From Halisarca cf. caerulea (Eukaryota; Porifera; Demospongiae; Chondrillida; Halisarcidae): a stretch of 64,000 nucleotides of DNA. The stretch lies in contig CAUJGJ010000185.1 in NCBI GenBank assembly GCA_963170055.1, positions 3,156,775 to 3,220,774 on the forward strand. The letters run 5' to 3'. Both the position numbers and the translations under genes were made by a program. Position 1 is the first letter of the stretch. Every line of letters begins with the position of its first letter. The notes under the pieces are model-generated. The model saw nothing but the letters and a program-made list of their open reading frames with translations. It was not told where the DNA came from and searched no databases. Below, piece after piece: positions 16,999 through 32,768 of this stretch.

Positions 16999-18887
16999 TA
17001 CCTTGTACCTTTTAATACCACAGCCTGCAGTGTGGACTATTGTGACCCCCTTGTTGGGCCCCAAAGGAGACCAACTGGAGGTGAGCCTCCAGACATCAGT
17101 GAGGGAGAGACCCACTGGATATGGGCCCAGCTACCCCCACCATCCCTGATGGCCCCCTTGTGCAATCAGGGGTTGCCCATCTGTGAGGTTGCAAGCCCCG
17201 TGAGATGGGGAGGGCTGGGCTGCAGCTGAAGATCGGTGACATAATCCACCTAACTCATAGTATATAGTGCTGATTCCCAACCCTAAACTCAGCCATATAC
17301 ATACAAGCTAATAGCATATACAGGGGGGCACCAGCCAATGACCAGCACCCTGCATGCATGCATGCATGCTAAGAGTCTGATGAAGAAATACCCAAATTAT
17401 ATTTAATGTTTCCAGTGGTTGAGGCTGTCAGATATGATTTTACCTTTAAGCTGCTGAGAGTCACAGCTTCATCCCTTTAAAAGCACCACCTGCTGGCAAC
17501 AGGCATAAGCTCTCATAAGAGATTACTAATCAGCCACTCACGTCAACTGGACACACACACCCACACCCACACACACACACACACACACACCTTCTCTGTA
17601 GTGTTTTTGCAGTAAAGAGATTGACAACTGCCTATTCAGGGATCATAAATTGACTAGAAGTGTGTTCTGTAGTATCGACATTTAAAACCTTTATTATTCC
17701 CCATTGCTATATATGCTGCTTGCTTATCATGCTTCAGCTATGAAGCAGCATAACTTGTTGTGCATGGTCAACAAAAAGTGGGAAATGGATAATGCTAACC
17801 TTACAAATCCCCAGCCAGCTGGCCTTGATGGTTTTCATTGGTTCAATGTATAGAGGTGCCAAGTTGAAAGAGGAATACCACAACATACAAGTGCAAACCA
17901 TTCATCCTTCACAGACCAACACACAAAGCCAACCAGCATATACATTTCATGGGTTTTGAACTCTGAGTCATGCATCTCATGGGCTTCATCTAAAGCTGTG
18001 ATGACATGTAGTTCACAAAACTGCTACCACAACAGCATGGGTGAGCGAGCAGGAATATGATGACACTCAGAACATGGGATTTCCTACTCAGCACACACAC
18101 ATACATACACATTTGTGGCCTCTCTGTCTACAGCACAAGTCATTCAGTCTGTGTCTGACTACACACTTCTGTACACATGATGGACTGCTATGAACGCTTA
18201 CGAGGGAAAGAATGCAACAAAGTACGGGACATGCGTAAGCATTCACTACTTCTACTACATGCTTGTCTTGTGTATGTGCAACTGACAACTAAAAAGACAC
18301 TAAAATTAATTTCCAATAATTATCTACTGTTTATCATTTTCTCATTTTGACCTGAACCGTAAAATATCTCCCTCCTTTTTATGCCTTATGTACCTTCTAG
18401 GACACTAGTGGGATAGCAGGACAGCTAGTTAGAGAAGCATTTTCAGGGACTGCCCCACAATATCCGGGGCATGTGCAGTTGTCAGCTTCATTGAAACCCT
18501 CCTACCCACTTGAGACCTATAGTGTTCAAAAAGTGCTCATTTTAGGGTTTCCAGATTTGCACAAATGTATACAGCAAATATATTTAACTGTAGGATCGAT
18601 ATACAAACATATGTATGTAGAATGTATAGAAATTTAGACTATATAGGGATTTACACAGTAATTCAATTTAACAAATTTTTTTTCATGTATGTTGCATAAA
18701 TTCATACCAATTTCTTGGGAACATCGATTAATTTTAGATAATATTGAGCTAATCATGATCATGCAATGTGTAGGTGCAGATCGAGGGATCGAATTTTGAA
18801 GTTTGCAATCTAGAACATAATCATGCATATACCCTGGCTCTCTTCATCCCCATGCATGGGACTTGCAATCCAGCCCATACTGTGTGA
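16993..18887. other. Intergenic, no gene seen
   Basis: No supportable coding region. A somewhat GC-richer block at 17030-17250 loosely resembles one at 41030-41240 (both end near 'cataatcYacct'), possibly a dispersed repeat. A (CA)n run lies at 17551-17590. Confidence 0.5.
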
Positions 18888-19230
18888 GCAACGTACCCCA
18901 TACTGCATGAGCAACGTACCCCATACTGCATGAGCAACGTACCCCATACTGCATGAGCAACGTACCCCATACTGTATGAGCAACGTACCCCATACTGCAT
19001 GAGCAACGTACCCCATACTGTATGAGCAACGTACCCCATACTGCATGAGCAACGTACCCCATACTGTATGAGCAACGTACCCCATACTGCATGAGCAACG
19101 TACCCCATACTGTATGAGCAACGTACCCCATACTGCATGAGCAACGTACCCCATACTGTATGAGCAACGTACCCCATACTGCATGAGCAACGTACCCCAT
19201 ACTGTATGAGCAACGTACCCCATACTGTAT
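18888..19230. repeat. 23-bp tandem array, 46-bp higher-order dimers
   Basis: About 15 copies of a 23-bp unit (gcaacgtaccccatactg followed by Yatga). The units are nearly identical and differ at one C/T position. From the fourth copy on, the variant alternates T, C, T, C without a break, so the true repeating unit is a 46-bp dimer. The minus strand is open in all three frames through the array and encodes the same 23-residue period in each, which is a property of the repeat and not evidence for a gene. Confidence 0.95.
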
Positions 19231-20096
19231 TTCTGCGTGGGGTCATGCCCTTTGCATGGCTACTGCATAGATGGCACAGTCATGCAGTATATAGATCGAC
19301 TGGAAGCAACAATTGCATGGTCTTGAATCCCTACAATATTGGCCGGGTCAATACTACTGTAAATGTAGTCTATATTGTATGTACATGCATACACTTCCAC
19401 CATGCAGTGGAACCTCTGCATGTATAATCCAACATTTTTGAACTGTATAATCCAACCATACATGGAAGAGCAGTCACCATGTATAGAAGACCACACTAAG
19501 AGCTACTTGATAATCCAGCAAATAATCTGACATATGCTTTTTGTTGCCCACACGCATGCAGTGTGTTAGATAATGGAGGCTTCAATGCAGCTGTAATAAC
19601 TATCCTACCATACATGCAAGACTGCTCATGCATGTGTTTAATTTCTGTTTTCCACCAAGCTCTCAATATCCTCCTGTCCCCCTCCCATTCACCACAATTC
19701 AAATCGATTCCCACACTCCCAATTGTTCCAGCTTGTCATTGCCATTATACCACGGGTCCAAAGGTACGTATATTTATCTCACAAAATTAGCAATGTTTAA
19801 AACAAGCAAAAATACCACACGCAGAATTCGTCTGGCGCAACTGACCCTTTTGCCAATGCTGGAAAGGGTCGGCTATGCTAGAGTAATGCAGAATACAGGC
19901 AAAACTATGCCCTTCCATAGTTGAATAGCTCCCTTTTCGTCAACACAATATCATTCATCTACTCAATGCTGTGCAAAAATATCGATATCAATGAGCAGAT
20001 TGAAACAATGAAGGACACATTATACAAGTAATGATTCCTATATTATTATCAAAATTCCTCATACACATTACAACACAGGTGGAAGTCACTGGAAGC
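19231..20096. other. Intergenic downstream of PCID2
   Basis: No gene seen. Sequence at 19400-19510 carries 'gtggaacctctgcatgtataatccaac', resembling a decayed end of the Tigger-like MITE family. The PCID2 3' UTR must lie in the last few hundred bases; no AATAAA was identified. Confidence 0.5.
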
Positions 20097-22919
20097 CTAT
20101 TTTAACGCTACATCCACAGTTACTTTAGGAAAAGGATTTTGCTTGCTGACAACTAGTTTCTGATGTTGATGAGATATGTATCCTCTAATGAATGACTGCA
20201 AGAAAGGACCATCATAGAACACACACATACAATCAGTTAAATACATACAGTGCACTGTATGTAGATATGTACCTTGTCAATGAGGTGTGCTACAATGCAC
20301 TGTGTTTCATCAGTATCAATATCCTCCACCTTTGTATGGAAGAAACGGTGAAAGTAGTTTAACATCCATTACTGGCACCATGCAGACACTTACCTCCATC
20401 ATTTTCAGAGCATCACAAAATATACCTAAAGGTATCTGATGAGTACCCAGCAATAGATATCTGCATGAACAAAGCAGACAGATATTTTCAACACAATGTT
20501 AAGGATGGACGTACTGTAAATAAGCAGTACATATGTACATAGAGTTAAACTTACACTCTCTTAAATAGGTTGCGGTAAGCCAGGACAGTCAACTTTTCCA
20601 GTATGAGGTAAGTTCCACATTGAATAAAGAATTTCTAAACAATATCAACCATTTCACATGTACCCCATGGAACTAAAGCATCCATAAAAGACTGCAGCCA
20701 CAAACCTCATTCCTATCAATAGCACCATTCAAAGCTAGCACATTGCCTTGTCTGCAGAAGAAAGGAATAATATATTCTTCAGTGAAAAGTCACAAAACAT
20801 CCCTCACAACAATCACAAAACATCCCTCACAAAGCAATACTGTGGTACTCACTGCAATGCTGTAGCGATGCCAGCAAACTCAAGTAGTGAATACTTCTGC
20901 AAAAGTCTATAGCTTGGAATTTGTCCCTATACATATAGGAAAGTTAGCAAATACTCAGTATATGTTTGTGTGAGAGCATGTATTGGTTAGGGAGAAACGT
21001 GTGCAAAAGTATGTATGCAAATGCCATGGCCACTTGTAGCCCCCACCAACATGTGTACTGTACATACGTTTGTAAGTGAACTGCTGCAGAACACTACCAC
21101 TATTGTTGTGTATGCACATGGCAAAAGAAGAGCAAGCCAACTCTTCAGCTCACCAATAACATTTTGACTGGTATCAAATATGTAAGAATTCTCCTAAGAA
21201 AATAGAAACAAGGTTCATTGGAAATGATAGTGAGAAGAACCAAACTGACAAAGATTCTCAGTAGCTGACAACATTTTGCACACCAAAATCACGGACATTT
21301 GGTAGCACAAAACTGACCTTTTGTTCCGTTTGGCAGCTCTATGGCATCGTTCAAAGGCAAAGGTTAAATTTTCATCAGCTAAAATAGAAAACATGCATAC
21401 AAGAAAGTTAATAGAAACATATCATGTAAGCAGCACAAAATATGGTGTGCAATACAATACGGTTATACCTGCTTTAAAGTCACTGTCAAAAATTGCTTTT
21501 CTTCCGACAAAATAACTGAAGGAAAACATATGCAATGTACCGCAACAAGCACAACATAGGATGTGACAACCTGTTACATACCTGTATGTGACCAGCTGTC
21601 CTATCTGGCACTCATTGCGAAGATTTGACTGCTCTACAGCTCTTATCAATGGCTTCATCAGATTTAATTTATTGATCTAAACAACATTATCTACTTGAGG
21701 TGAGATTGTTTGTGTGCCCATGATGGTAGTACTCTTTGATTACCTTAAAATACACTTTGAACAACTGATTAATAACTGGCAAGGTACCCCACTTCTTTGA
21801 CTGCTCCCGAGCAGCCCTCAAGTCCGTGACACACACACGGAAAGAAGACATCAGGATTTCAGCTGCTTTCTCTTGAATATCTCCCGGTCTTCCTTTCCCA
21901 CGGACAGTCATTTGTTTATCAGCCTGTTGAGTCACACCAGTAGGACAATAAAGTCCATCATATGTACACAATCACACTCACCTTGACAGCTAACTCTCTC
22001 AGATCTCTTATCAGAGTAATGAGTACAGGGATGCCCCTATGAAGGCAGAAATCAGGTACTCACACATAACATGGATGATACCATCCAGATATACACATGA
22101 AAGGGATCAAACATGCGATATTCACCAATTTTCATCCTTTTGAGTGAGGAGAATCTTATTGAATGATCTGTTGATACTAAGGAATAACATTTTACCATTC
22201 AAACAAAGGCAAAGTCAAAGTCAAAATACACAGCACTGGATTGGATACTGAACAACCACGGATTGTGCAGTATAAGATCCGATGTAGTCTCCATTATTAA
22301 CACACTCTACTGCCCTATGTACATGAAGATAGACATTCGCACATTATATACAATGATGAATTATACAGCATAAATGAGCAAATTCACAAGATACGGATTA
22401 CTTTACTTTAGATGTGCTGCAACAATTTCATCAAATGGAGATCCGACAACCTTTCGACACATAATCTCATAGCCTTGCACCTACATGGTGAGTATTGAGC
22501 TTGAGCACATATGCGATTTAAATTTCCCCTTCTACAGATTATTGCTTACCCTTAGTTTTGGGTTATGCACATGCGGATGACAGGAGGAAAGAAGTGGCTG
22601 CAGAATAAATCGCAAAGTAACGAATTTGTGGATGGTACAAGCACACACAATACATGTTCTACTTCATATAGGAACTGAGTCTAGAAAAGACAACGCGTGC
22701 AGACTTTTATCATTGACAAAATAAATTAAGGAAGTAAGCTTAAGGTACCCTATACTCTCCAACAACTTACAGCCAAGAACATGCCATCCTTTTCTAGGAT
22801 ACTCTGATATACCTAATAAACGTACAAACGATAAAAAGTGACATAAAACAAGTTTAGAGTTATATAAAGTACTTCCACACCTGATTCAAATATTGTTGCA
22901 ACGTTCCGCCAAACGCCAT
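20097..22919 (-). CDS. PCID2: PCI domain-containing protein 2 (TREX-2 subunit)
   Basis: Eighteen exons on the minus strand: 22881-22919, 22771-22812, 22550-22597, 22407-22480, 22249-22314, 22126-22167, 21982-22036, 21744-21923, 21582-21676, 21469-21515, 21318-21378, 21154-21193, 20853-20926, 20706-20751, 20555-20634, 20394-20460, 20273-20329 and 20097-20195. They total 1,212 nt, or 403 aa (human 399). PCID2 (yeast Thp1) is a TREX-2 subunit that couples transcription to mRNA export at the nuclear pore. It is recognised along its length: [12 protein letters not shown] at the N-terminus, [49 protein letters not shown], and the PCI/winged-helix end [19 protein letters not shown]. The start is fixed by homology just before LQQYLNQ. 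It is head to head with ELP3. Confidence 0.96.
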
Positions 22920-22958
22920 TTTTCAAGTGGGAATTCCCCTTTGGCCTGCCGTCAGAAG
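22920..22958. promoter_or_regulatory. 39-bp divergent PCID2/ELP3 promoter
   Basis: Only 39 bp separate the PCID2 ATG (minus, 22919) and the ELP3 ATG (plus, 22959). At its centre is the perfect palindrome GGGAATTCCC (22929-22938), which also fits the kappaB consensus GGGRNWYYCC. Either both 5' UTRs are extremely short, or each transcript starts inside the other gene's first exon or intron. Promoter function is inferred from gene layout. Confidence 0.7.

Positions 22959-32768
<9,810 letters not shown>

Follow-up and report, generated by a model that had tools for sequence, protein, structure and literature searches.

In Amphimedon queenslandica, 11,379 genes are arranged head to head with transcription start sites (TSSs) less than 1 kb apart (PMC4773876). 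The Sp1/GC box is the most abundant promoter element there, and a YY1/Kozak motif of low abundance is commonest ~10 bp after the TSS (PMC4773876). NF-kappaB has no occurrence in the main text of the same paper (PMC4773876). NF-kappaB/Rel proteins themselves are present in sponges (PMC13042239). Transcripts with very short leaders have been described as well; in TISU genes the median leader length is 12 nt (PMC2518114).

The locus described here comprises the genes PCID2 and ELP3 of Halisarca cf. caerulea, which are found head to head in a stretch of 64,000 nucleotides (the window). The spacer between them carries the palindrome GGGAATTCCC, a word of the kappaB class, and the PCID2 start codon lies within the YY1-like word AAAATGGC. 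The kappaB consensus is GGGRNWYYCC, the TISU consensus is SAASATGGCGGC.

PCID2 and ELP3 start 39 bp apart

The coordinates of all features are collected in Table 1. The coding regions span 2.8 kb (PCID2) and 9.8 kb (ELP3) of genomic DNA. The sequence-only reading had claimed start codons on opposite strands with a gap of 39 bp as well as tiny first exons, and the gene models agree on both counts: the PCID2 start codon corresponds to CAT at 22917-22919 (minus strand), that of ELP3 to ATG at 22959-22961 (plus strand), and the first exons contribute 39 nt and 19 nt of coding sequence, respectively. The usual setting of a bidirectional promoter is a head-to-head pair of transcribed protein genes whose starts are separated by less than 1 kb. 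Between the two ATGs this distance is 39 bp here, and transcription of both genes is indicated by the database contigs behind the proteins P0001 and P0122, which are presumably derived from RNA.

Table 1. Features of the PCID2/ELP3 start region and of further loci that carry the palindrome. Positions refer to the window unless a locus is named.
Feature	Position	Strand	Remarks
PCID2 coding region	20097..22919	-	18 exons, 403 aa; gene model reads through
ELP3 coding region	22959..32768	+	21 exons, 549 aa; gene model reads through; P0122 100% match; TIGR01211 762.5 bits
PCID2 first coding exon	22881..22919	-	39 nt, 13 residues; donor CAG|gtgtgg; P0001 N-terminus identical
ELP3 first coding exon	22959..22977	+	19 nt, MGKKQK + 1 nt; donor AAG|gtttat; P0122 N-terminus identical
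Spacer separating the start codons	22920..22958	.	39 bp, GC 0.51
Palindrome GGGAATTCCC, kappaB-class box	22929..22938	.	sole exact copy in window; fits GGGRNWYYCC
YY1-like AAAATGGC containing PCID2 start codon	22915..22922	-	8/12 TISU positions
ELP3 start context GAAGATGG	22955..22962	+	first 8 of 12 TISU positions
TATA-like TATATAAAG, candidate rival ELP3 promoter element	22861..22869	+	in PCID2 intron 1, 98 bp upstream of ELP3 ATG
Acceptor-like AG before PCID2 ATG, candidate	22946..22947	-	PWM 5.06; 15/37 real acceptors score no higher; 9.2% of the 7583 AGs in window score no lower
Acceptor-like AG before ELP3 ATG (TCAG|AAG), candidate	22954..22955	+	PWM 3.14; 5/37 real acceptors score no higher; 20% of the 7583 AGs in window score no lower
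Second acceptor-like AG before ELP3 ATG, candidate	ends 22958	+	PWM 3.95; 14.5% of window AGs at or above
MED6 (PF04934) / CCDC97 (PF09747)	L014:2001-2010 and flanks (C2:341148)		ATGs 35 bp apart, closer than PCID2/ELP3; both domains in near frames
NAAA (PF15508, near frame) / EXOSC10-like frame (PMC2NT, PF08066, downstream)			59 bp
ARPIN (PF10574; first exon weak, E 0.038; downstream strong) / unnamed frame			59 bp
TIPIN-like frame (Swi3, PF07962, downstream) / frame MANVLAESKDQ	L008:2001-2010 and flanks (C1:3171933)		55 bp
SPCS3 (PF04573, near frame) / DHHC domain (PF01529)			DHHC domain >1 kb along the other side

PCID2 is 100% identical to the JGI protein P0001 over 88% of the query and shares its starting methionine. 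The other 119 proteins among the matches listed, which include named animal PCID2, reach 49-57%. A 68-aa piece of PCID2 used as query gave no match; the full protein did match. ELP3 is identical to the JGI protein P0122 over its full length of 549 aa, again with the same starting methionine. Its relatives are closely similar, with 89% identity in Halichondria panicea and 90% in Dysidea avara (both sponges), and near the top of the list a bird record (85%) and others (90%) are found as well. P0001 derives from a contig of 1704 nt and P0122 from one of 1710 nt, the latter with room for no more than 60 nt of untranslated sequence, both ends taken together, if it is not cut short. Both contigs are too short to hold the introns of coding regions of 2.8 and 9.8 kb and hence seem to be spliced and RNA-derived. 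PCID2 and ELP3 are thus probably both transcribed and spliced as modelled. P0001, a cluster of 15 member sequences, reads into the 64-nt intron that follows PCID2 exon 16 (window 20330-20393), owing to which its C-terminal end differs from our model. This read-through ends PCID2 at 377 aa and is possibly a case of intron retention. Downstream of PCID2, a minus-strand tandem repeat with GTATGGGGTACGTTGCTCAT units is visible by eye at 18850-19250 of the window.

The two ATGs are supported, without being proven, by the gene caller's choice of start. The N-terminus of zebrafish PCID2, MAHITLNQYLQQV, agrees with the PCID2 start, and an in-frame TGA is located 6 nt upstream of this ATG. Three of the seven other ELP3 proteins compared (P0127, P0129 and P0141) start with MGK-, and three others begin with MET or MES. 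The Halichondria isoform P0130 begins downstream, at an internal MMM, which counts against the modelled ELP3 start. No stop interrupts the ELP3 frame upstream as far as 22842, a stretch which crosses PCID2 exon 1 and contains no further methionine.

That little room is left for two promoters and two untranslated regions had also been pointed out. This holds insofar as the leaders have to be either very short or extended into the neighbouring gene. The lack of room itself is not puzzling, since transcripts with very short leaders are known from TISU genes. Compared with the TISU consensus, the contexts of the PCID2 start (AAAAATGGCGTT) and of the ELP3 start (GAAGATGGGAAA) each agree at 8 of 12 positions; among the 3229 window ATGs, 5.8% score at least as high. 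Hence neither start is a TISU by consensus. Across the genome the exact TISU word is found 166 times, in part within repeats (e.g. L045, L056, L060 and L061), and its reversed form 12 times.

Placement of the kappaB class behind start words

The palindrome is 9 bp away from the PCID2 ATG and 20 bp away from the ELP3 ATG. Its centre is shifted by 5.5 bp against the middle of the spacer, so that the exact central position ascribed to it earlier has to be given up. The proposed match to the kappaB consensus stands, and the class as a whole is enriched behind AAAATGGC (see below). Within the window, GGGAATTCCC with up to one mismatch occurs 3 times vs 0.84 expected, and 7 of 100 shuffles reach 3. 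One 10-mer in the spacer is by itself unremarkable against chance; the placement of such words across the genome is striking.

All genome-wide counts refer to an assembly of 194.5 Mb in 454 contigs. It holds 447 exact sites of GGGAATTCCC vs 97 of the reversed word (4.6-fold). An unselected sample was drawn from these 447, consisting of 40 of 50 listed sites with 2 kb on each side. Gene starts are recognised by eye at five of the 40 (L008, L014, L021, L024 and L032). L014 and L021 have Pfam matches in the near frame, and L008 and L014 resemble head-to-head pairs (2 of 40 sites). L022 looks like a coding exon (PF01189). Long mutual similarity between L005 and L028, L039 and L040, and L043 and L044 indicates repeats or duplicates. 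Given so few recognisable gene starts, the 4.6-fold excess is not accounted for by promoters in this sample. Starts of long ORFs are found nearby on 17 sides compared with 8-16 at eight shifted points, which is a weak effect. AAAATGGC or GCCATTTT within 50 bp of the sampled palindromes amounts to 1.0 per kb vs 0.06-0.25 per kb in bins farther away, the former value being based on just 4 matches.

The pattern GCCATTTTN{0,30}GGGAATTCCC describes a AAAATGGC which reads outward at a distance of 0-30 bp from the palindrome. It has 17 matches in the genome, including the PCID2/ELP3 site itself and the paralogues L077 and L080. If the outward-reading word is sought at 200-230 bp instead, a single match is obtained, and AAAATGGC reading towards GGGAATTCCC yields 4. 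Local density predicts 1.9 for the 0-30 bp placement (30 words in 431,400 strand bases). The frames opened by AAAATGGC stop within 15 aa at 6 of the 17 loci and are perhaps interrupted by splicing or no start codons.

The whole class was evaluated with GCCATTTTN{0,30}GGGRNWYYCC. This pattern gives 168 rows vs 26 at 200-230 bp, a 6.5-fold drop, with overlapping and repeated rows among both counts. Against the 168 observed, 76 rows are expected from a cruder local estimate based on 39 sites. Depending on the control, the excess of the kappaB class behind AAAATGGC is about 2- to 6-fold. Gaps were analysed for the first 100 rows listed, 86 of which were kept; 14 overlapping or repeat-like rows were dropped and one overlapping pair was retained. 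Sorted into 5-bp bins from 0 to 30 bp, the gaps number 7, 20, 32, 9, 9, 7 and 2. Gaps of 5-14 bp comprise 52 of the 86 rows (51 of 85 minus one overlapping row), with the bin picked after the data had been seen. Among these 86 rows the words GGGATTTCCC (8), GGGGAATTCC (6), GGGAATTTCC (6), GGGAATTCCC (5) and GGGACTTTCC (3) are found. The words are thus spread across the kappaB class, and the placement signal is not confined to the palindrome.

A loose divergent pattern, CCATN{5,35}GGGAATTCCCN{5,35}ATGG, shows no excess: it has 9 matches (8 sites) vs 8 (7 sites) for the convergent arrangement, in a comparison of low power. Hence the palindrome cannot count as a specifically bidirectional element. 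It is safer to claim that the box precedes starts of one class and, in a dense genome, is able to serve two genes. The concentration of the kappaB class behind AAAATGGC is more interesting than the earlier remark on a palindrome in the centre.

Unrelated gene pairs at the same word

At 6 of the 17 loci a likely coding start is located on the other side as well, at most 36 bp from the palindrome (for pairs see Table 1). Wherever a domain sits downstream of the start frame, first exon and domain are presumed to be joined. In the case of SPCS3, the AAAATGGC on the DHHC side opens just 3 aa, so the start of the DHHC gene should be elsewhere. The other 11 loci, viewed with short flanks except for L010 (4 kb) and L091, gave no named partner gene; the one side of L091 that was scanned contains leucine-rich repeats. 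A 19-bp block, AGTGGGAATTCCCCTTTGG, is common to the window and L008, beside GCCATTTTTC, the genes being unrelated.

The sequence-only reading had put forward, as an unproven consequence, a co-regulation of PCID2 and ELP3 that would couple mRNA export to tRNA modification. This is unsupported, as the same word is found at the starts of MED6/CCDC97, NAAA, SPCS3, ARPIN and the TIPIN-like frame. A link specific to PCID2 and ELP3 was rejected on these grounds, and if the placement of GGGAATTCCC holds up, no special story for this pair would be needed. Among titles retrieved for PCID2 and ELP3 together, none on the pair was found. In human, PCID2 presumably forms a head-to-head pair with CUL4A; no paper that joins PCID2, CUL4A and a bidirectional promoter was found, and the pair is not used as evidence here. 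When GGGAATTCCC was combined with core or bidirectional promoter motifs, the word was absent among the matches listed, which form a part of the total. The same scope applies to sponge promoter motif enrichment with NF-kappaB or YY1, where no title on sponge promoters was among the matches listed.

A probable compact promoter and its described relatives

The recurrence of kappaB-like boxes upstream of one start class suggests that promoters are built very compactly here, and not that PCID2 and ELP3 are linked in a special way. We consider it rather probable that the locus represents a housekeeping promoter of a known general kind, compact and bidirectional, which includes a kappaB-class box and, in the case of PCID2, a YY1/TISU-like start codon. 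Both genes would then share one core promoter, made up of the 39-bp spacer and of the first-exon ends on either side. The kappaB-class box (here the perfect palindrome), placed at the start sites or slightly upstream of them, would recruit a factor that works in both directions; with a symmetrical box, one dimer could set the polymerase either way. PCID2 may initiate so close to its ATG that the codon sits in the YY1/TISU-like AAAATGGCG, resulting in a leader of ~10 nt and a TSS within the palindrome or at its border. The PCID2 start codon itself would be the YY1-like element. The ELP3 start site is probably at most ~20 nt away from the ATG, between palindrome and ATG, where GAAGATGG resembles the left half of a TISU, and both mRNAs would be translated from short leaders. 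A generalisation of this model is tentative. Housekeeping genes of this genome might use the kappaB-class box as a core promoter element with a set position, ~9-18 bp ahead of start codons of the YY1/TISU-like type. Start site and start codon of mRNAs with almost no leader would then be specified jointly by YY1 and a single Rel-type (or Rel-mimicking) factor, and the palindromic form would serve two genes from less than 60 bp.

Two conventional promoters that overlap each other are an unlikely alternative to this shared promoter. At least one gene would start inside the first exon or intron of the other, with head-to-head overlap of the transcripts, and the 39 bp would be of no particular importance. 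A candidate element for ELP3 is the TATA-like TATATAAAG on the plus strand (22861-22869), which would suit a start ~30 bp further on, at about 22890 in PCID2 exon 1, and a leader of ~70 nt. The ELP3 frame, which stays open to 22842 via this exon, is in line with such a start. In Amphimedon, 549 head-to-head regions overlap and 26% of the surveyed promoters have a TATA box (PMC4773876). However, the genome-wide placement of the box relative to starts argues against overlapping promoters, and so does the ELP3 contig with its non-coding share of at most 60 nt, slightly below the leader needed, unless the contig is cut short. Less likely still is an upstream non-coding exon or spliced leader joined just before an ATG (at 22955 or 22958 for ELP3, at 22946 for PCID2), whereby the promoter of that gene would be located elsewhere. 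The scores of the candidate acceptors (3.14, 3.95 and 5.06) are inside the range of the 37 real ones, but 20%, 14.5% and 9.2% of the AGs in the window score as high or higher, and an upstream exon would have to sit in the neighbour gene on the opposite strand.

It is very improbable that the palindrome reflects chance or composition, in the sense that GC-richer start regions gather GC-flanked words and the two genes are merely close in a dense genome. The weak excess of GGGAATTCCC in the window would fit, as would the weak enrichment of starts in the unselected 40-site sample and the loose pattern without divergent excess (9 vs 8). The placement controls address distance, local density and, for the palindrome itself, orientation; general GC richness near starts could still contribute. 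Chance is opposed by the 6.5-fold drop from 0-30 to 200-230 bp, by the orientation (17 vs 4) and by the peak of gaps at 5-14 bp, a bin chosen post hoc.

If the placement holds, the compact bidirectional promoter has wider meaning. Sequences of the kappaB type, best known as inducible immune elements, would become part of how basal promoters are built in an early-branching animal, and a box of this type would neighbour a start-codon element known from mammals. In addition, a minimal bidirectional promoter of 35-59 bp and a list of gene pairs would be available to study how two polymerases share so little DNA.

With the bidirectional promoters of Amphimedon the locus has in common dense head-to-head genes and short intergenic space, and the YY1/Kozak motif is located ~10 bp after the TSS there (PMC4773876). 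In contrast, the Sp1/GC box is the most abundant element in Amphimedon, whereas a scan of 22781-23080 here gave no GC box word; a motif left unnamed in the available text of that survey could equal the kappaB-class box (PMC4773876). As in the TISU system, the PCID2 start codon lies within a YY1-type element and a very short leader is expected (PMC2518114). Unlike TISU, just 8 of 12 consensus positions are matched at either start, and the short leader is a prediction here. GGGAATTCCC resembles kappaB sites of NF-kappaB/Rel by fitting GGGRNWYYCC, and the whole class is concentrated behind AAAATGGC in this genome. It differs from kappaB sites as inducible immune elements in that the putative site seems core-promoter-like, at a narrow distance from housekeeping starts.
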